Assembly: GCF_902506345.1 (NCBI RefSeq) | Contig: NZ_LR733413.1 | Span: 723,455-787,454, forward strand | Direction of reading: 5' to 3' | DNA from: Flavobacterium sp. 9R | GTDB lineage: Bacteria; Bacteroidota; Bacteroidia; Flavobacteriales; Flavobacteriaceae | DNA: 64,000 nucleotides | Shown here: positions 54,701-64,000 of the stretch, one piece after another | How the letters are laid out: every line of letters begins with the position of its first letter | How positions within the stretch are numbered: the first letter of the stretch is position 1 | The notes under the pieces: generated by a model | Databases searched by the model: none | Seen by the model: the letters and a program-made list of their open reading frames with translations, nothing else | What the model was told of the DNA's origin: nothing | Made by a program: the position numbers and the translations under genes

Positions 54701-55030
54701 CCTAATTTTTTTTCATTGTGAATGCGTTTCACAACAACACAAAGGTGAAAACTATTAGGGTTCAGACGCTTATATAATTAAAAGTGAATGTTGTATAATT
54801 AGTACAAAGTCTTCACTTACATTTTTTTAAACAAACGCAGTAGCGCATATATATAGCCCGCTTTTTTTGAAGTTTTTTTTTTAAGTTAGGCTTGGTACTG
54901 TTTATTACCTTTTGGAAAATCTAAAAATAGTTACGGTGTTTTGATTGTATTCTGTGACTTTATTGTGAGACTTGAAAAATACAAAACCAATTTCAAATTA
55001 AGCCTAAAAGCAGTAATGTGTGTAGTATTT
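54701..55030. other. Intergenic region with a degenerate cassette-boundary repeat
   Basis: 54701-54920 is A/T-rich promoter DNA of the BON gene. About 54930-55027 keeps the element core AAATACAAAACCAATTTCAAATTAAGCCTAA (split here: AAATACAAAACCAATTTC, then AAATTAAGCCTAA), but the palindrome arms are no longer complementary. I read it as the decayed left end of the array. Confidence 0.5.
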
Positions 55031-56059: not shown

Positions 56060-56190
56060 AACGTTCTGTTACTGCACCGTGTTTGAGACTAAAGTACGAT
56101 TTATTTCTCGGTAATCATTAAATTGCCAAATGCAAACTAATTTTCAAATAAAGCCTATTACTTAAATCTCTTGTAGTATGTTGTGGCCAG
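56060..56190. repeat. Cassette-boundary palindrome (copy D)
   Basis: Starts CAACGTTCTGTTACTGCAC and ends CTTGTAGTATGTTGTGGCC. Core AAATTGCCAAATGCAAACTA and AAATAAAGCCTATTAC. The arms pair only partly (GTTTGAG with CTTAAAT). The right GTT is at 56180-56182. Confidence 0.6.
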
Positions 56191-57042: not shown

Positions 57043-57049
57043 ATTTGGT

Positions 57050-57202
57050 TCCAGAGCTAAATGCAGTTTGGGACTTAAGTAAGCTCTGTTTTCGGATTTG
57101 CTAACCGAGCGTTAGCGAATTGCTGAAGTAAATCCTCCAAATACAAGACCGACTTTGAAATTAGGCCTATTACCCAAATTGCTTGTAGTGTGTGTTGGCG
57201 GT
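57050..57202. repeat. Cassette-boundary palindrome (copy E)
   Basis: Left ATGCAGTTTGGGACTTAAGT, right CCCAAATTGCTTGTAGTGTG then GTTGGCGG (GTT at 57194). The middle holds an extra stem GCTAAC (57100-57105) / GTTAGC (57111-57116). The left arm has decayed: about 13 of 18 positions match. Confidence 0.68.
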
Positions 57203-57209
57203 AGTGATA

Positions 57210-57467
57210 TTAGTCGTACTGATGTCTACATTTGACAATTTGAATTTCATCATCAATAAACCTGTAAATTAATCTATGTTCATCATCAATTCTTCTTGAC
57301 CAAAATCCTGCATACTTATGCTTCAAAGGTTCTGGTTTTCCTACTCCTTCAAAAGGATTTCTTGAAATATCTTTGAGTAGATCATTTATTTTTTTAACTT
57401 TCTTTTTGTCAATTTTTTGCCAATACAAATAATCTTCCCAAGATTCATCAACAAATACATATTTCAT
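57210..57467 (-). CDS. yoeB: YoeB/Txe-family mRNA endonuclease toxin
   Basis: 85 residues from the ATG at 57467; a TTG at 57479 overlaps the antitoxin gene and is not needed. The family pattern is complete: WEDYLYWQKIDKKKVKKIN, RNPFEGVGKPEPLKH, GFWSRRIDDEHRLIYRF and the terminal CRHQYD, with the catalytic Glu/Arg/His region intact. YoeB cuts mRNA at the ribosomal A site when free. It follows the antitoxin stop by 1 bp (TAAAATG), so translation is coupled. Confidence 0.92.
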   Translation of the reverse strand: MKYVFVDESWEDYLYWQKIDKKKVKKINDLLKDISRNPFEGVGKPEPLKHKYAGFWSRRIDDEHRLIYRFIDDEIQIVKCRHQYD

Positions 57468-57468
57468 T

Positions 57469-57723
57469 TTAATCCTCAATTAAGTCTTTAGAAAATGACT
57501 TACCACTTTTAAGTTTATCAATAGCAGAATCTAACCTACTTTCGTTAGTTCTGTTTGATAATTCATAATTTGTTGCAATCAGTGAATTATATTCTTCAAG
57601 TGAAATAACAACAATCCCAGAATCTTTTCCACGATTTATAATTAGAGTTTCAAAGTTTATTGCTACTCTATCAAAGTAAGATTTAATATCTTTTCTGAAA
57701 TCTGAAATATTTGCTACTAACAT
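57469..57723 (-). CDS. yefM: YefM/Phd-family antitoxin
   Basis: 84 residues. N-terminal DNA-binding Phd/YefM domain: VANISDFRKDIKSYFDRV, then TLIINRGKDSGIVVISLEEYNSLIAT; the C-terminal third is charged and probably disordered until it wraps the toxin. It represses its own promoter with the toxin and neutralises YoeB. A TTGTACA/TGTACAA operator lies just upstream. It makes up one array unit with yoeB. Confidence 0.92.
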   Translation of the reverse strand: MLVANISDFRKDIKSYFDRVAINFETLIINRGKDSGIVVISLEEYNSLIATNYELSNRTNESRLDSAIDKLKSGKSFSKDLIED

Positions 57724-57735
57724 AATTATTATAAT

Positions 57736-57755
57736 TTGTACAAATGTATGTACAA
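57736..57755 (-). promoter_or_regulatory. yefM operator and promoter
   Basis: Perfect inverted repeat TTGTACA-TACATT-TGTACAA (minus strand) containing the -7 box TACATTTG (57748-57741), 13 bp before the ATG. TGTACA is the hexamer known for YefM operators, so binding would cover the promoter. Confidence 0.75.
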
Positions 57756-57798
57756 TATTTTGGTTTTACGCAATTTTCGTTAAATTATTAACGCTTAC

Positions 57799-57925
57799 GT
57801 TCCCGCGCTACAAGCAGTTTGGGATTAAGGAAGCGTAATCTTTCGGATTTGCCAAATCTGCCAAATACAAAACCAACTTCAAATTAAGCCTAATACCCAA
57901 ATTGCTTGTAGCGTGTGTTGGCGGT
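57799..57925. repeat. Cassette-boundary palindrome (copy F)
   Basis: Left arm CGCTACAAGCAGTTTGGG (57806-57823) and right arm CCCAAATTGCTTGTAGCG (57896-57913) match at 17 of 18 positions. Left GTT at 57799, right GTT at 57917. The unit start GTTGGCGGT (57917-57925) is the reverse complement of ACCGCCAAC at 61024-61032. Confidence 0.8.
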
Positions 57926-57978
57926 TCGGTTGCTTTTAGTCTAAATTTCGATTAAGAACCCATTTTTTTCATTTCTAC

Positions 57979-58131
57979 TTTTCAAATTGCCGTCAGGAAA
58001 CTCAAATTTTTCAAGTTTCTGCTTTTCACGTTCATATGTTTACACTTACTAATTCGGATTTTCTTACGTAAAGAAAACCAATTCTTTCAATGTTTTTATT
58101 TGGTTAAGTTCAGCCACAACTGACCATTAAC
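57979..58131 (-). repeat. Decayed coding remnant, copy 1
   Basis: Similar over its length to 60895-61032. On the minus strand it contains stretches such as YEREKQKLEKFEFPDGNLKS broken by stops. Both copies start right after a GTT of a boundary element (GTTAATGGTCAGTTG here, GTTGGCGGTCAGTTG there), so they look like remains of the same former unit. Confidence 0.55.
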
Positions 58132-58215
58132 GTTCTCACATATTATTTTTGGCGATTTGTATCCCTAAACTTACGGCTTAAATATAGCCACCATTAACTA
58201 TATTCAGAGTTGTCG
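58132..58215. repeat. Degenerate cassette-boundary element (copy G)
   Basis: Begins AACGTTCTCACATATTATT like other copies and ends near ATAGCCACCATTAACTATA; arms pair weakly (CTCACATAT with ATATTCAGAG). GTTAATGG of the next unit is at 58134-58127 on the minus strand. Confidence 0.4.
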
Positions 58216-58235
58216 TTTGTATTACTTTATTATGA

Positions 58236-58709
58236 TTAAAACATAGAATATTCCCAATCTACTTCATATTTTAGCAATTTTTTGTTCTTTGTTTTTTCCA
58301 AAATATATACTTTAACGTAATTCTGAAACCCCGTAACAGGAAATAATAAATGAAATTTATTATTTATTATTTTTTCTTGTTCTTTTTTCTTTTTCTTGAA
58401 ATAATAATATGTATCCTGTTGCAAACTAGAAGGTTTGCTTATCTTTATTTTTTGTAAAAAAGCAATTGAACATGTATCTGTTTTATGATTTTTTTTATGC
58501 GAGAACCTTTCTCCATCAATATAAAAGTATATTTTTTGTTCACTACGTATCTTTTGATTATAAGAAGAGGTTGAGTCAAAATACACATATTTTATTAATT
58601 TTAAATACTTCTCCCCATCTTTATAAAATCTAAAGTAATCGCTTTCTTTTGTTTGTGCATTAATAAATGTCGAAACTGTAAGAAAAAATATGCAAATGTA
58701 GTTTTTCAT
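58236..58709 (-). CDS. Small exported protein, second copy of an immunity-like pair
   Basis: 157 residues, signal peptide to INAQTK. Paralogue of the protein at 58869: both share YFYI(D/E)xER, KTDTCSI or KIDTCSI, and the C-terminal VKVYILEKT...KYEVDWE. The rest has diverged strongly. It starts 2 bp after the stop of an orphan C-terminal fragment (58712-58819), exactly as the first copy starts 2 bp after the full gene. It may be a periplasmic immunity or inhibitor protein; this is inference from position only. Confidence 0.6.
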   Translation of the reverse strand: MKNYICIFFLTVSTFINAQTKESDYFRFYKDGEKYLKLIKYVYFDSTSSYNQKIRSEQKIYFYIDGERFSHKKNHKTDTCSIAFLQKIKISKPSSLQQDTYYYFKKKKKEQEKIINNKFHLLFPVTGFQNYVKVYILEKTKNKKLLKYEVDWEYSMF

Positions 58710-58711
58710 AA

Positions 58712-58819
58712 TTAATTACAATTTTTTGGTTCGTTATAAAAATTATCACTGATTAATACATCAATGTAGACTTTTCTTTTAAGATATAAATTATTCCATA
58801 TAATTGTCGCTAAATTTGT
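58712..58819 (-). pseudogene. Orphan C-terminal fragment of the HExxH lipoprotein
   Basis: 35 codons and a stop reading TNLATIIWNNLY...DVLISDNFYNEPKNCN, matching the last 35 residues of the gene at 59345 (VTTIAWDNLPP...DILIRDNFYNGPKNCN). An ATG 18 bases upstream is in frame, so a short peptide could be made. It shows that the end of the lipoprotein gene plus the following small gene were duplicated. Confidence 0.8.
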
Positions 58820-58868
58820 GTTTTGCGAACACATAGGTTGTTTGAGATTATCCAAATTGCAATTTCTT

Positions 58869-59342
58869 TCAAAAACTACTTGATTCCCAGTCCACCTCGT
58901 ACTTAATTATCTTATCATTATCCGTTTTTTCAAGGATATATACCTTGAGATATTTATGAATGCGCGATATAGGCATTGATTTTGGAACTTTTTGATTTGT
59001 TTTTTTTTTGAATTTTTCAACTTTTTTTCTAAAGTAATTGACTTCTTCTGCCTCTAAATTTCCTGTGTTTTCTAACTTAATTTTTTTTAGGATTCTAATT
59101 GAGCATGTATCGATTTTGTGTCTTCCTTTATTAAAAACAAATCTTTCTTTTTCTATGTAAAAGTAAGTTACATTTTTATCTTCACTTTTTTGTTTCGTAC
59201 TATTTTCATTTTCGAATAAAATATACTTTTTTGGTTTTTCTCTTTCATTTTCTCCTCTATAAAAATTATCAAAATCCGCTTTTAGATTTTGGGAATATAT
59301 AAAACTTACGTTTAATAGTAATGTGTAAATAATTGTTTTCAT
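58869..59342 (-). CDS. Small exported protein, first copy of an immunity-like pair
   Basis: 157 residues from the ATG at 59342; a TTG at 59354 overlaps the previous gene. Signal peptide to FIYSQN, then a basic, lysine-rich mature protein of about 140 residues with IDTCSIRILKKIK and a C-terminal YLKVYILEKTDNDKIIKYEV. The start is 2 bp after the stop of the HExxH lipoprotein gene (TAACCATG), so translation is coupled. No family recognised. A role as inhibitor of the upstream peptidase-like protein is my inference from coupling and duplication. Confidence 0.62.
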   Translation of the reverse strand: MKTIIYTLLLNVSFIYSQNLKADFDNFYRGENEREKPKKYILFENENSTKQKSEDKNVTYFYIEKERFVFNKGRHKIDTCSIRILKKIKLENTGNLEAEEVNYFRKKVEKFKKKTNQKVPKSMPISRIHKYLKVYILEKTDNDKIIKYEVDWESSSF

Positions 59343-59344
59343 GG

Positions 59345-60759
59345 TTAATTGCAATTTTTTGGTCCGTTATAAAAATTATCTCTGATTAATATATCAATTG
59401 AGGCTTTTACATCTGGAGGTAAATTATCCCAAGCAATTGTAGTTACATTTTTGTCAAGTTTACCCAAACCTACCCACGCTACAGCTTCATAGGTAGATCG
59501 GGGAAGACGATTATTATCAAATTGTTGTATCACATCAGCAATTGTACTTCTGTAATGGTTTGCCATCATTTCATGATTCCAAGTTGGCTTCCATCTTCTT
59601 TCATAGTAGTCATATAATCCTGGAAAATTATTTTTTAAAGAGTTCACTAATATTACTTGTTCTTCTGGAGTGTTTGAGTTTAGAGTACCTCTTTGAGCAG
59701 CTGATAACATTTTTCTAAAAATTTCAGCATGAATAATCTCGTGTGCAAATACTGTTGCTATACCTAAATCTGATAAAGAAGCAAAGCTATTTTCATTGAA
59801 TTGTATTTCTGTGACAAAATCAACAGGAGGTTGAGTCTCTCCATATACATTTGAAGCTAATGTATTGTTAATTGTTAATTTTAAGTGACTTACTGGAAAT
59901 TCTCCATCAAATTTTTTAATAGCATTTGCAAAACCTGAACTTAAAGAGTTTAATTTATTATACACACATAATGCTTTGCCTGTAAGATTAACAATTACTT
60001 CAACAGGATGATTATCAGTAGGACTAAAAGTACCAGATGGGGAATGGCCATGATATTCAGCATTAGTACTACCGCCAGTGCTTACCCAAACATACTCGGA
60101 AGTAGTATAATTAAGAACAGAGTGTGTATATGTCCAACCTCCAGATCCGTTTGACCTGTACCAATCGGTATAATGTTGGGTTCTTGTGTACAACCAAAAG
60201 CCATTAGTGTCTTCACCAATTGGGGGAACTTTTGATGTTCGACTTATAGTTCCTTTTTCTTTATCTGAAAACACATTCAACAATTTTCCGTTTTTAAAAG
60301 CTTTTATCTTAGTATTTTCACCTTTCAAATTGTAATGATAAAGCGTGCCAGAAAAGGAAGTAATGGAGAAGTAATTTGTATTAGTCTGTTTTTCCGTTTT
60401 ATTGGGCAGTAATTTAATGATTTCAAATGACCAATAATTGGTGTTTCCTTTAGAGACAAGTAGTTTATATTGTACGTCTAAAGCCTGCTTTCCATTTTTC
60501 AATATTTCTTTTATTTTAAAAGTAGTGTTAAATTCATAAGTCAATGGTATGCTGTCATTTTGTTCATTTATGTTGTATTGAGTCCAATCAATAATAAGAT
60601 TGTTTTTGACAAAATCATCATTAAAGTTTTCAAGGGAGAATTCACTTTGTATTTGTTGGATTTCTGTTAGTTCAACATCAGAGGGATTATCTCTAGAACA
60701 ACTAATATTAATAATGAAAATCCAAATAAGAGAATTCTGATTTTGAATAAGTTTTTCAT
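59345..60759 (-). pseudogene. HExxH metallopeptidase-like lipoprotein with a frameshift in its signal peptide
   Basis: The ATG at 60759 opens a lipoprotein signal (MKNLFKIRILLFGFSLL), but the frame must shift near 60710 (TTATTAATATTAG) to continue as ISCSRDNPSDVELTEIQ and then through the rest, 471 residues if one base is restored. The body has a beta-rich N-half, a zinc motif FAHEIIHAEIFRKML and a later WNHEMMANHYRST that could give the third ligand. Without repair only a TTG at 60544 opens the body. It could be a recent pseudogene, a phase-variable site or a sequencing error. Peptidase activity is inferred. Confidence 0.72.
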
Positions 60760-60894
60760 TTTCTGTATCATACCGTTAAATTTCAAAGTTAATAATAAAG
60801 TTTGATTGTATAAGTCAATTTTTCTACTCTTCAAGTGGTTTTCTGGTTTAAAAGCAGATTATTTTTGGCTAAACGAAAATACTATTAAAAACGC

Positions 60895-61032
60895 TTTTCA
60901 AATTGTAGTCGGCAAACTCAAACTTTTACGTTTTTGTTTTTCAGGCTGTCATTTCCTAGTTTTCCTGCGTAACGAAAATCAAACTTTACAAAGTGTTTTT
61001 CTGGATAAGTTCGGTTTCAACTGACCGCCAAC
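60895..61032 (-). repeat. Decayed coding remnant, copy 2
   Basis: Similar to 57979-58131 (shared TTTTCAAATTG, GTCGGCAAACTCAAA, AAGTTCGGTTTCAACTGACC), with stops in all useful frames. Lies between the HExxH lipoprotein promoter region and the element at 61024. Confidence 0.55.
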
Positions 61033-61162
61033 GTTTCGCAGCTTGCAGAAGTGGCGGATTAAGGAAGCCTAAACTTTCGGTTTAACACTTCCTTTGCAAT
61101 TACAAAACCAACTTTACATTAAGCCTAAAACCCGACATTTCTGCAAACTGTTGTTATAGGTT
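61024..61162. repeat. Cassette-boundary palindrome (copy I)
   Basis: Arms CTTGCAGAAGTGGCGG (61042-61057) and CCGACATTTCTGCAAA (61132-61147) pair at 13 of 16 positions, with a sequence unlike the arms of F/J or K/L. ACCGCCAAC (61024-61032) ends the previous unit; GTTATAGGTT (61153-61162) begins the next. Confidence 0.78.
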
Positions 61163-61166
61163 TTTT

Positions 61167-62144
61167 TTATTTTTTACTCTGTTTCATTTGTGCTAAGAAG
61201 AATTTTATAACCTCTAAATTCATATTAGATGTTGTCCAATGTCCAACATTTTCATATGTTTTGAAGGTCGCATTGATATTAGCTTTCAAATAAACTTTTT
61301 GACATTCTAAATACCTTTTTTGAACTGTCGCGCCAATATTATCATTGATTATTTTCCTCTCCTTTTTATTATAAGCATCATCATATTGAACAGCATCGTT
61401 CTCGTCTAATTGACCCATATAAATTAATTGAGGAATGGATTTGTAAGTCTCAAAGTTAAATTTTTGGTTGAATAGTTTTTCAAAATAATTTATTCCAATT
61501 GGATAGTTGATTTTTAGACTGTTAATTTCATTTTGAGGAAACATAAGCTCTCCGTTAAAACCACCAATAGCCAATGCTTGAATTTTGTCTGGATGTAAAA
61601 ATGAAAAACGATTTGTAAAAGTGGCAGAAGCAGAAAAACCACTCATAAATATTTTGTCTTCAACCTCAATAGTCAATGCTTTTAAAATGTTTTTGGCATC
61701 TCTTATCATTTCTAATAACTGCAAGTCAAGTCGTTTTAACTCGTTTGATTTTTCTACCATTACATCTCTGTCCAAAGCGTGTGTGTAGGTCAAAGGTTTT
61801 GATGCGGGTCTTGGAAAAATAGGAACTAGAAAAGGTATGCGTAATTGGGTAGAAATATTGTTACCAACTGAACTAACAGCTGCTAAATCAATAGCATGTT
61901 TTTTGTGTACTTCGATACTGTCCGATGGTTTTCCAGTGTTGTTTGGCTCAACGAGCAGAAATGTTTTGCTATTTCGTTTTGTGCCTTTGGGAATGAACAG
62001 GATGTAATTATTAAAAAAATTTTTCGATGGTTTTTTTTCAATTACGATTAAACTATCTTTCTCGAAGATTTCTAACTGTGAATTTTGGGCGACCAAAATG
62101 TTGCAAGCAAATGTAAGTAAGGTAACTGTGATTATGTATCGCAT
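61167..62144 (-). CDS. Secreted alpha/beta-hydrolase
   Basis: 325 residues with a signal peptide (to ILVAQNS). An alpha/beta-hydrolase with nucleophile elbow FMSGFSASATFTNRF (Ser), an acid candidate in YMGQLDENDAVQY and a His in FKTYENVGHWTTSN. The layout resembles the PHB-depolymerase/esterase group. The substrate is unknown. It fills a complete array unit bounded by GTTATAGGTT and AACCTATAAC. The stop codon is 4 bp after the unit's start on the plus strand, so the unit is tightly packed. Confidence 0.72.
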   Translation of the reverse strand: MRYIITVTLLTFACNILVAQNSQLEIFEKDSLIVIEKKPSKNFFNNYILFIPKGTKRNSKTFLLVEPNNTGKPSDSIEVHKKHAIDLAAVSSVGNNISTQLRIPFLVPIFPRPASKPLTYTHALDRDVMVEKSNELKRLDLQLLEMIRDAKNILKALTIEVEDKIFMSGFSASATFTNRFSFLHPDKIQALAIGGFNGELMFPQNEINSLKINYPIGINYFEKLFNQKFNFETYKSIPQLIYMGQLDENDAVQYDDAYNKKERKIINDNIGATVQKRYLECQKVYLKANINATFKTYENVGHWTTSNMNLEVIKFFLAQMKQSKK

Positions 62145-62192
62145 TTTATATGTTTTGTAGTGGTGGTTCTTGTTACTGTCTGTTCATAAAAT

Positions 62193-62330
62193 AACCTATA
62201 ACGTCCCCGCGCTACACGCAGTTTGGGACTAAATTAAGCCCATTATTCGGATTTGCCAAATCATCCAAATACAAAACCATATTTAAATTAAGCCTAATAC
62301 CCAAATTGCTTGTAGCGTGTGTTACCTGCA
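62193..62330. repeat. Cassette-boundary palindrome (copy J)
   Basis: Arms CGCTACACGCAGTTTGGG (62210-62227) and CCCAAATTGCTTGTAGCG (62300-62317) match at 16 of 18. AACCTATAAC (62193-62202) ends one unit, GTTACCTGCA (62321-62330) begins the next. The left junction is GTC rather than GTT. Confidence 0.8.
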
Positions 62331-62338
62331 GGCGACCT

Positions 62339-62881
62339 TTATTCTAAGTCAAGTTCTTTTTCAATGATTTGATTTTCGCTTTTTCGGTCAGATTTTCGCC
62401 TTTCTGATTTCTGTTTCTGAATATACTTATTTACATTTCCAACACACATTTCATATTCTGCAAATTGGGAGCCTTGTTTTATCATTATTCCATTCATTGG
62501 GCAATTTTCATAACCACAGTTATGTTTTGAATATTCACCGAAATTCCGGTGTTTTATTCGTTTATCTTTTAATATTTTTTCTTGGGCTATAAATATTTTT
62601 TTCCACAAACCTGCTTTATCACCTTCTGTGAGCTCCAATCCTAAAGTTAATACTTTCACATAAGTCCAAGGATCTTTTATTTGGAGAAAATCAAATGTCT
62701 TTTGAAAAATGCTGTTGGCTAATTCTCGAATCTTAATTTTTTCCTCAATGGTTATTTTTTCATTCTCTGTAATAGAACGATAAAGACCTAAAGTATTAAA
62801 GTCAGAATAATTTTTATGATTTTCAATGTAGAAGAAATATTCTTCAAAACTTAGGCAATTAAATTGTTTTCCGATTTCCAT
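62339..62881 (-). CDS. Hypothetical cytosolic helical protein
   Basis: 180 residues, not recognised, no signal peptide. Mostly helical; a short cysteine-containing segment HNCGYENCPMNGIMI (about residues 120-134) and a highly charged tail rich in Lys, Arg, Ser and Glu (KQKSERRKSDRKSENQ). It is the only gene of its unit, bounded by GTTACCTGCA and TGCAGGTAAC. Confidence 0.62.
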   Translation of the reverse strand: MEIGKQFNCLSFEEYFFYIENHKNYSDFNTLGLYRSITENEKITIEEKIKIRELANSIFQKTFDFLQIKDPWTYVKVLTLGLELTEGDKAGLWKKIFIAQEKILKDKRIKHRNFGEYSKHNCGYENCPMNGIMIKQGSQFAEYEMCVGNVNKYIQKQKSERRKSDRKSENQIIEKELDLE

Positions 62882-62913
62882 AGTTCTCTTTAAAGATAAA
62901 CGTGATTTTCGCT

Positions 62914-63053
62914 TGCAGGTAACGTTCTGGTACTACAGCGGGTTTGGGTTCTAAATTAAGATTTATTTTTCGGTTAGCACTAAACTGCCAAATACAAAAT
63001 CAACTTCCCATTAAGCCAATTGCCCAAATCCGTTGTAGTAGCTGTTATGTGAT
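62914..63053. repeat. Cassette-boundary palindrome (copy K)
   Basis: Arms TACTACAGCGGGTTTGGG (62931-62948) and CCCAAATCCGTTGTAGTA (63023-63040) match at 16 of 18, both differences still G-T pairs. TGCAGGTAAC (62914-62923) ends one unit, GTTATGTGAT (63044-63053) begins the next. Confidence 0.82.
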
Positions 63054-63059
63054 GCCAAT

Positions 63060-63728
63060 TTAGACAACGGGTTTTCTATCTAAATCGCTATATGGATAAA
63101 ATCCTTTTTCTTTTAGCAAATTGATTAATTTGTCACTTCCATTTTTTCTAGCAAATTCCATTTCGCTTCTAAAAACTTCTAAGCATAACAATAAGTGATG
63201 ACTTCTATCCCCGATTTTAAATTCTTTGTTGTCAGGTCTATAATTATCTAATATCAGACAATTATTCTCGTCCGTTCCATTTGGAACTTCAACTGTTTCA
63301 TTCGGATTTAAAATTGCTTGCGAAGCATAATTTGCAATAGTTGTAAATATTCCGCAAAAGCGTCTTTCGATTGTATTAAATTCAGTTTGGTTTTCTTCAT
63401 TTTCATTATAATCCAATTTAGTAAAACCAACTAATTCATAAGTTCCAATTCTGTTCGGTTTTGGTCCATATCCATCAGGATTTAGTAATTCCATTGTTGC
63501 AAATCCAGTCCCCTTAATATGATTTTTGAAATAGTACATATCAACTGCACCTCCAACTGAAAAAGGAATTATTGCGTGTCCAACAATTCCGTGCATTTTA
63601 CCTAAAACACTTTCTAATCCTTGTTCTTTTAATTCGTAATCTTTATTGTATTCCTCTTCTGTAAATTCTCTTGTCGGCAATTCAACTTCCTTCTTTCTTC
63701 CACCGAATAAATTTTTGAAAAAACTCAT
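63060..63728 (-). CDS. Hypothetical protein, possibly suppressor-of-fused-like
   Basis: 222 residues, no signal peptide. Starts MSFFKNLFGGRKKEVELP, a common tag-like start, then an acidic helix and a mixed domain with IGTYELVGFTKLDYNENE and a C-terminal SHHLLLCLEVFRSEMEFARK. The order recalls SUFU-domain proteins (ELV... followed by a late histidine-rich strand), often found with toxin systems, but I cannot confirm it. Sole gene of a unit bounded by GTTATGTGAT and ATCACATAAC. Confidence 0.58.
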   Translation of the reverse strand: MSFFKNLFGGRKKEVELPTREFTEEEYNKDYELKEQGLESVLGKMHGIVGHAIIPFSVGGAVDMYYFKNHIKGTGFATMELLNPDGYGPKPNRIGTYELVGFTKLDYNENEENQTEFNTIERRFCGIFTTIANYASQAILNPNETVEVPNGTDENNCLILDNYRPDNKEFKIGDRSHHLLLCLEVFRSEMEFARKNGSDKLINLLKEKGFYPYSDLDRKPVV

Positions 63729-63766
63729 ATATCTTAAATTTTATTTTAGTCGTTTTTTGGTTTGGT

Positions 63767-63906
63767 ATCACATAACGTTCTGGTACTACAGCGGGTTTGG
63801 GTTCTAAATTAAGATTTATTTTTCGGTTGTCACTAAACATTCAAATACAAAACCATTTTCCAATTAAGGCCAATGCCCAAATCTGTTGTAGTAGCTGTTA
63901 TGTGAC
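63767..63906. repeat. Cassette-boundary palindrome (copy L)
   Basis: Nearly identical to copy K in the first 60 bp (AACGTTCTGGTACTACAGCG...). Arms 63784-63801 and 63876-63893 match at 15 of 18, the differences all G-T type. ATCACATAAC (63767-63776) ends the unit; GTTATGTGAC (63897-63906) opens the next, which leaves the window. Confidence 0.82.
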
Positions 63907-64000
63907 GCCTTTTTTGTTTATACTTGTTTTCCAAGTTTGATTTTTATTATCCAAAATATAGATTTCGGAATCGTTAACTCTCAAAACTTTTTTAATAGTG
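63898..64000 (-). CDS. C-terminal end of an unidentified protein (5' part outside window)
   Basis: An open minus-strand frame enters from the right edge and ends TIKKVLRVNDSEIYI...TWKTSINKKGVT at a TAA (63900-63898) that is made by the GTTA of the boundary element. About 34 residues are visible; no family can be assigned. Its position directly against the palindrome matches the other array units. Confidence 0.5.
   Translation of the reverse strand, partial: TIKKVLRVNDSEIYILDNKNQTWKTSINKKGVT

Follow-up and report, generated by a model that had tools for sequence, protein, structure and literature searches.

In the present study, we examined a window of 64,000 nucleotides (positions 723455-787454 of contig C1, G000:C1, of the studied Flavobacterium genome), which holds the decayed end of an array of gene cassettes. 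Judged from sequence, this array very probably belongs to a chromosomal cassette platform that would work like an integron and that lies beside a tyrosine recombinase of a lineage other than IntI. In the window the array extends to about position 56060 on the left and beyond 64000 on the right, and its units (GTT...AAC) are separated by stretches of about 124 bp, each itself a folded site. Two covariance models were used to find sites: R1 was built from four sites of the window, and R2 served for the locus-wide and genus-wide searches. The models were built stepwise because MAFFT alone misaligned the diverged sites; a plain hairpin scan was too noisy. The features of the array, in window coordinates and with open reading frames (ORFs) where found, are as follows.

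54930..55017, + strand: weak site relic, far left of the array (R2 23.5 bits, E 0.0097; partial R1 match at 54977-55009)
56060..56183, + strand: degenerate attC-like site (R1 79.6 bits) whose right end lacks an in-register GTT and which shows no significant fold
57045..57196, + strand: degenerate attC-like site (R1 35 bits) with extra loop sequence and AAC lost; adjoins the toxin-antitoxin cassette
57194..57798, - strand: cassette unit YefM-YoeB (YefM antitoxin 57469-57723, YoeB toxin 57210-57479)
57796..57919, + strand: attC-like site (R1 141.5 bits), among the R1 training sites
57917..61032, - strand: large unit with three ORFs (58236-58709, 58869-59354, 59345-60544)
61030..61155, + strand: attC-like site (R1 73.8 bits), outside the R1 training set
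61153..62202, - strand: cassette unit whose ORF 61167-62144 matches no Pfam family (E<=0.001)
62200..62323, + strand: attC-like site (R1), among the R1 training sites
62321..62923, - strand: cassette unit whose ORF 62339-62881 matches no Pfam family (E<=0.001)
62921..63046, + strand: attC-like site, R1 training site; the + strand folds as R stem, spacer and L stem
63044..63776, - strand: cassette unit, ORF 63060-63728, SUFU-like
63774..63899, + strand: attC-like site, among the R1 training sites
63897..64000, - strand: start of a further unit; an N stands directly after the end of the window

The ends of the units follow a pairing rule. As a preliminary description of the window had stated, the two ends of a unit are reverse complements (10 bp at 61153/62202, 62321/62923 and 63044/63776; 9 bp at 57917/61032), the three best pairs reach 15 bp with one mismatch (ten matches, the mismatch and four further matches), and the units begin with GTT and finish with AAC, which is followed by GTT or GTC. 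Its proposal that the start of a cassette pairs with R'' at the end of the same cassette holds widely, and unit-specific pairing was measured over 121 + 211 units of two sets. The first table, made from 150 of 163 R2 matches and seven by hand, contains 127 units from 27 loci, with GTT...AAC present in 121; the second set consists of 213 units from loci outside model building. From position 4 onward the ends, unlike AAC and GTT, are independent of the model. Positions 4-10 were all paired in 64 of the 121 units, whereas 500 shuffles of the ends among units averaged 1.3 such units and never exceeded 6, and in the second set positions 4-9 were all paired in 185/211 (mean 5.2 and maximum 13 in 300 shuffles). 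Watson-Crick pairing in these 211 units was 92-98% at positions 4-9, 73% at position 10 and 80-91% at positions 12-15, whereas shuffled partners gave 28-66% at positions 4-10 and 12-15; from position 16 on it was at background level. Position 11 had a Watson-Crick pair in 3% and none in 97%: the base of the unit end was T in 211/211, and the unit start had G (172 units), C (31), A (6) or T (2). From this profile, the ends therefore make up a box of 15 positions, one of which is fixed as a wobble or left unpaired. The poor fit to GTTRRRY remarked on in the same description was seen throughout (22/332 units fit on the site strand and 16/332 on the gene strand), and GTTR was present on the gene strand in 331 of the 332 units.

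The sequences between the units have a conserved fold. In the two right-hand sites of the window, the + strand, which is the complement of the gene strand, forms an R stem (AAC/GTT), which a short unpaired spacer separates from an L stem of about 18-20 bp, and a loop of about 74 nt. When seven window sites were folded whole, z was below -2 on the + strand in five of them; the decayed site at 56060 gave no fold on either strand. In an alignment of 70 distinct sites, 94.5% of the cells pair against 66.8% in shuffles, a comparison that is biased towards pairing by the fitting of the alignment to the structure; double changes were found in 19 of the 23 stem pairs, and 0/500 shuffles were as good. 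For 102 distinct sites from loci outside the building of R2, 96.5% were paired against 84.0%, and 18 pairs had double changes. One pair of the L stem is a G-T wobble in 69/70 sites of the former set and in 101/102 of the latter, and it reads A-C on the opposite strand. No bulge (extrahelical bases) is present in the L-stem consensus, and the G-T wobble stands there instead. When the loop was replaced by six bases, 208 of 220 sites had the more stable L stem on the site strand.

The absence of an integrase from the window, noted earlier, was confirmed; the recombinase is instead on contig C15 of the same genome. The genome search with R1 gave 39 matches at E<=1, opposite-strand repeats counted too. 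Contig C13 (11.9 kb) carries 16 R1 sites, all on the + strand, one of them weak and off-pattern (C13:6472), and contig C15 (5.4 kb) carries one. The order on C15 is cassette end, site, one cassette, TATATACAA^GTT (on the strand of the recombinase) and the recombinase gene, which has its 3' end towards the array. Because an N directly follows the end of the window, the assembly breaks inside the array, which was probably split in this way, and we infer that C13 and C15 belong in the gap right of the window. A hairpin repeat just past the window end (L008 455 onward) recurs at the end of C15 (L007 5260-5387). Solitary sites were also seen on C1 far from the array (342844, 1176233, 1300919, 1320468, 1498331-1499428 and 3132654), as if cassettes had been inserted off target.

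The C15 recombinase is a protein of 347 amino acids in which the catalytic RKHRHY positions are present; they are conserved across the recombinase family with few exceptions. Pfam reports Phage_integrase and a SAM-like domain. The N-terminal domain of 60-70 amino acids is predicted to be beta-beta-alpha-beta-beta-alpha, and it appears as an extra domain in the predicted model (predicted local distance difference test, pLDDT, 83.5; predicted template modelling score, pTM, 0.58). The nearest solved chains are of the XerA type (5hxy, 4a8e), together with IntI4 (2a3v), and the structure search barely covered the N-terminal domain. Among 8000 scored candidates of a large protein collection, 7874 match the recombinase at E<=1e-60. 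The suggested search for a tyrosine recombinase with the integron patch in the flanking genome succeeded as to the recombinase, which is found on C15 and at most homologous loci, but not as to the patch. Spacing between two catalytic positions is 60-66 residues in 77/78 family rows (the remaining row is truncated) and 102-103 in 22/22 IntI rows, and we conclude from this difference that the IntI domain of about 41 residues is absent from the family.

This bears on the explanation that the array is a divergent true integron, whose IntI has lost its extra domain. The anatomy is integron-like, and IntI4 2a3v stands beside archaeal XerA among the best structure matches; we nevertheless regard this explanation as improbable. 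In addition to the shorter spacing and the 22/332 units with GTTRRRY, the recombinase scores 209 bits with TIGR02249 (IntI), under the cut-off of 265, and 225.2 bits with NF040815 (XerA-like), over the curated cut-off of 220. Furthermore, in a quick maximum-likelihood tree of 127 rows made with no bootstrap, the IntI clade (19 canonical rows with L230, L233 and L241) has a Shimodaira-Hasegawa-like approximate likelihood ratio (SH-aLRT) support of 100 and excludes the family; support is modest on other branches near this clade, and the tree is drawn exclusive of L119, L123, L139, the IntI of L151 and loci with no picked ORF. The recombinase is thus not a member of the IntI clade. Of the two options given in the preliminary description for its integron-like array, a divergent integron or some other system of folded sites, the integron-like character stands and a divergent IntI does not. 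Because the recombinase has no IntI domain and lies outside the IntI clade, we read the platform as a parallel system and not as a divergent IntI integron. Our verdict is that it works like an integron and is not a member by the IntI test.

The proposed search with covariance models found the sites across Bacteroidota. Recombinase homologs in 80 relatives fall mostly into a group of 60-78% identity and a group of 40-53%, with others at about 30-37%. R2 found sites at 25 of the 35 loci that make up the two higher-identity groups, with the own locus counted (one of the 35 is a fragment and one has a stop). In 23 loci the sites lie 3' of the recombinase and antiparallel to it, in two they lie 5' and parallel, and within each locus they have a single orientation. 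In L133 (G073) and L135 (G022) the recombinase is reversed, with its 5' end towards the array as in classical integrons. Among 80 named loci, R2 found 59 sites (E<=0.1) in 20 loci, all labelled Bacteroidota; 56 of these sites are 3' antiparallel, two 5' parallel and one 5' antiparallel. There were 0 R2 sites in the 33 last-listed named loci (L209-L241, 31 of them outside Bacteroidota) and no R2 match at E<=1 in 12 canonical-IntI loci of the same phylum; five background stretches gave one match, with E 0.76. At least one site (R2, E<=1e-5) is carried by 177/200 genomes of the same genus. Canonical IntI was over the cut-off in 85/296 genomes of the wider phylum, and none was among the matches of the own order. 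G045 has a further copy of the recombinase gene at C1 3275999-3277039 (L123), which is interrupted by a stop and has one site alongside, and a Chryseobacterium plasmid (L288, NZ_CP041688.1) carries a platform with four sites, with genes for an IS110 transposase and for the reverse transcriptase of a group II intron inside its array.

A relic resembling a cluster of attC sites lacking an integron-integrase (CALIN), in which the cassettes were moved long ago by an integrase since lost and the C15 recombinase is unrelated, would account for the decayed left-hand sites, for a window with no integrase and for the solitary sites elsewhere in the genome. Against this, C15 joins recombinase, site and cassette, the linkage of recombinase and sites recurs in the 25/35 loci, and identical duplicated cassettes, described below, point to recent movement; we consider such a relic decidedly improbable.

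An attI-like core was found in 30/35 recombinase flanks with a motif list written from the same flanks. Two of these 30 cores read GAT for GTT, and no core was found in the remaining five flanks, one of which is a contig end. The attI-like sequence lies mostly at the 3' end of the recombinase, and its core in close homologs is TATA-N-AC-A^GTT. There, the preceding 60 nt or so hold direct-inverted-direct copies of a genome-specific box, with at most 5/300 shuffles as good in 9/13 homologs and a weak pattern in 4/13. A hairpin at attI is clear in part of the close homologs and rare in distant ones. At 14-17 nt past the recombinase stop, 10/14 close homologs have a promoter-like TANNTTTG box, a candidate Bacteroidetes -7 element (0.4 expected); it is absent in four of the 14, own genome among them. 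In L113 (G043) and L110 (G026), attI has GAT for GTT and other hairpin-rich sequence follows, which may represent either a disabled insertion point or a different insertion.

It had been proposed that units would be gained or lost exactly at the AAC/GTT junction, and cassette copies in different surroundings, both within genomes and between species, do break there. The complete one-contig genome G045 of the same genus has cassettes of 528-636 bp in two or three copies that are 99.8-100% identical, and in the clearest pairs identity spans the whole left site and stops at AAC|G on both sides. For the duplicate analysis 52 of 97 pairs were usable. The left break was at most 3 bases from the first base of the site in 44/52, and the right end of identity was within 4 bases in 28, at 5-20 in 15 and further in 9. 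The YefM-YoeB unit of the window recurs in 14/198 other genomes of the genus (E<=1e-40); in three of these it is 93.8-95.9% identical, with different neighbours and with bounds at or near the same bases. The comparison of the sister locus at the window failed, the left flank gene being present in 2/31 genomes, own included. Intergenic hairpins similar to repetitive extragenic palindromes (REP), duplicating by homologous recombination with no dedicated recombinase, would fit the site similarity within a genome, which is sufficient for homologous exchange, and the different sites flanking the YefM-YoeB unit in other genomes. This reading leaves the 15-position unit-specific pairing, attI, the one orientation and the breaks at the same bases unexplained, and we hold it to be extremely improbable. 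Modules of the Xer/dif (pdif) type moved by XerC/XerD can hardly be upheld either, for although the recombinase is Xer-like and neighbours of tet(X) are named xerD in print, the boundaries of the units are unit-specific boxes of 15 positions and hairpins of about 124 bp, unlike dif sites of about 28 bp, for which no dedicated search was made, and the recombinase is distinct from the second Xer-like gene of its own genome (31% identity).

Several points weigh against an integron-like platform, and they are given here together. Recombination in this system is deduced from sequence. The left-hand sites of the window are decayed, and 10/35 recombinase loci have no site; five of these have less than 400 bp on the 3' side, and L134 has 9 kb. 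GTT...AAC was present in 211/213 units of the second set, a count that is not independent because GTT and AAC are part of the site-finding model, and the 52 duplicate pairs are not independent because 36 come from one genome. The left site of the YefM-YoeB unit is 50-61% identical despite the 93.8-95.9% identity of the unit; therefore, unit and site have not moved together in every case. With respect to the strand, three of the seven window sites folded whole had z < -2 on the - strand, and the folding energy of the whole site favours the site strand in just 133/220.

As the sequence shows, the integron-like platform consists of the recombinase, an attI-like sequence with a promoter-like -7 box, and an array of repeated parts (unit GTT...AAC and site of about 124 bp), which share a single orientation and whose genes mostly run away from attI. 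In the mechanism that we picture, when a cassette is excised as a circle, its first and last 15 bases would come together and so complete the R box. The strand opposite the genes would then fold into R stem, unpaired spacer and an L stem of about 18-20 bp. The fixed G-T wobble of the L stem and the fixed T at R position 11, which stands across from G (or C), would stabilise the stem of the site strand over that of the other, and this wobble and the mismatch at R position 11 may position the recombinase. Exchange would take place within the C-GTT core, with attI for capture and with another site for excision. New cassettes may be transcribed from the -7 box beside attI.

The genes of 213 units were oriented away from attI in 152 and reversed in 16, with 2 ambiguous and 43 having no ORF of 60 amino acids. 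Scans with Pfam and PADLOC covered 120/223 cassette proteins and gave varied families, each with at most four proteins and methylases first among the first 25 families listed. The unit of 3.1 kb in the window (57917..61032) has a diverged second copy of its own end at 57978-58134 (compare 60894-61035), and because of this copy it is probably made of fused or duplicated cassettes. Inside it, the neighbouring ORFs 58236 and 58869 have repeated flanks. An Rfam scan of the window, L034, L007 and L105 had tmRNA and Flavo-1 as sole listings, and the occurrence of Flavo-1 is one reason for assigning the genome to Flavobacterium.

The system also has a bearing on tet(X), a resistance gene to last-resort antibiotics. 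Judged by its ends and its site, tet(X) makes up an entire cassette of the present type in five genomes of Flavobacteriales. The relevant loci are as follows.

L290-L294 and L286 4100-5540: tet(X) cassettes and Acinetobacter tet(X3)

A tet(X)-like gene was found in 15/395 genomes of the order (E<=1e-150). In five Flavobacteriales genomes with 86-87% identity, tet(X) is enclosed in a 1208-bp unit, GTTATGTGCC...GGCACATAAC. The unit has a site of its own, which scores 42.5 bits with R2 in all five, and further sites are nearby. The tet(X) units and sites of L291 and L292 are 100% identical in differing surroundings, and the two loci diverge one base before GTT upstream and right after GTT downstream. 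In 4/5 genomes a recombinase homolog of about 41% identity lies 1.3-3.9 kb from tet(X), with its 5' end towards the gene. The remaining ten tet(X)-like genes (60-63% identity) had no such unit in the five examined, and they gave one weak R2 match, with E 0.012. On the Acinetobacter indicus plasmid p80-1-2-tetX3, a recombinase homolog (53% over residues 127-347) is upstream of tet(X3) in the same direction, and the gap between them contains, besides a -7-like box and a hairpin, the junction ...GCCACTT^GTTATGTGCC at which the unit starts. This junction, GCCACTT^GTTATGTGCC, differs from the usual attI core. The first 21 unit bases of the Acinetobacter copy are common to all five genomes and nothing upstream is shared; the far unit end of tet(X3) was not found, and there was no R2 match at E<=1. 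The recombinase adjacent to tet(X3) is called TnpF or xerD elsewhere.

For comparison with classical integrons, we used features given in three papers (PMC2727003, PMC9668308, PMC9024848). Like a sedentary chromosomal integron, the present system has a tyrosine recombinase beside a single insertion site and mostly single-gene cassettes in one orientation. It also shares a folded site per cassette, the R box of which is completed by the start of that same cassette, a presumed exchange within a GTT core, and toxin-antitoxin and unknown genes as cargo. Unlike in integrons, the recombinase has no IntI domain and usually has an extra N-terminal domain, and it reads towards the array in 23/25 loci. 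The R box spans 15 positions, with position 11 fixed as a wobble or left unpaired, and mostly does not read GTTRRRY; the L stem has a fixed G-T wobble, whereas attC has bulged bases there; and attI of most close homologs has direct-inverted-direct boxes. The recombinase is like XerA in passing the cut-off of NF040815 ('site-specific tyrosine recombinase/integron integrase') and in having 5hxy and 4a8e among its nearest chains. Unlike XerA, it has the added N-terminal domain and is located at cassette arrays; according to PMC8138268, Xer proteins, XerA included, mainly resolve chromosome dimers. The stretch in the window alone resembles a CALIN, but the genome holds a linked recombinase, and its sites differ from the usual type of attC.

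In the portions of the open-access literature covered (preprints lie outside it), no description of the recombinase, attI or arrays was found, and PMC13148043 came closest. Section 11 of that paper states that aph(3')-IVb inserts in Riemerella anatipestifer with no flanking homology, that 27 bp on its 5' side and 140 bp on its 3' side are always co-integrated with it, and that an attC-like fold was noted. By its description, this insertion fits the present system in kind and size; the same section names no recombinase, array or attI for it. IntegronFinder 2.0 (PMC9024848) reports one complete integron in Bacteroidetes (narrow sense), in Salinibacter ruber.

Integrons are currently defined and detected via IntI. 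Flavobacteria and their relatives appear to carry long integron-like arrays beside a different recombinase, which known integron definitions have missed, and, if this is true, mobile genes in large numbers have so far escaped notice. The system would be a natural comparison for the use of folded DNA by a recombinase with no IntI domain. PMC7473080 makes it a question worth testing how tet(X) left Flavobacteriaceae and why xerD adjoins it, and both the exit and the adjoining xerD become testable. We believe it likely that cassette integrons have at least two recombinase origins, and that a second class, with an Xer/XerA-like recombinase that has no IntI domain, pervades Bacteroidota with its own site code (15-position R box, fixed wobbles), is the source of ready-made tet(X) and perhaps of other Flavobacteriales resistance cassettes, and has the 'xerD' of tet(X3) as its integrase.

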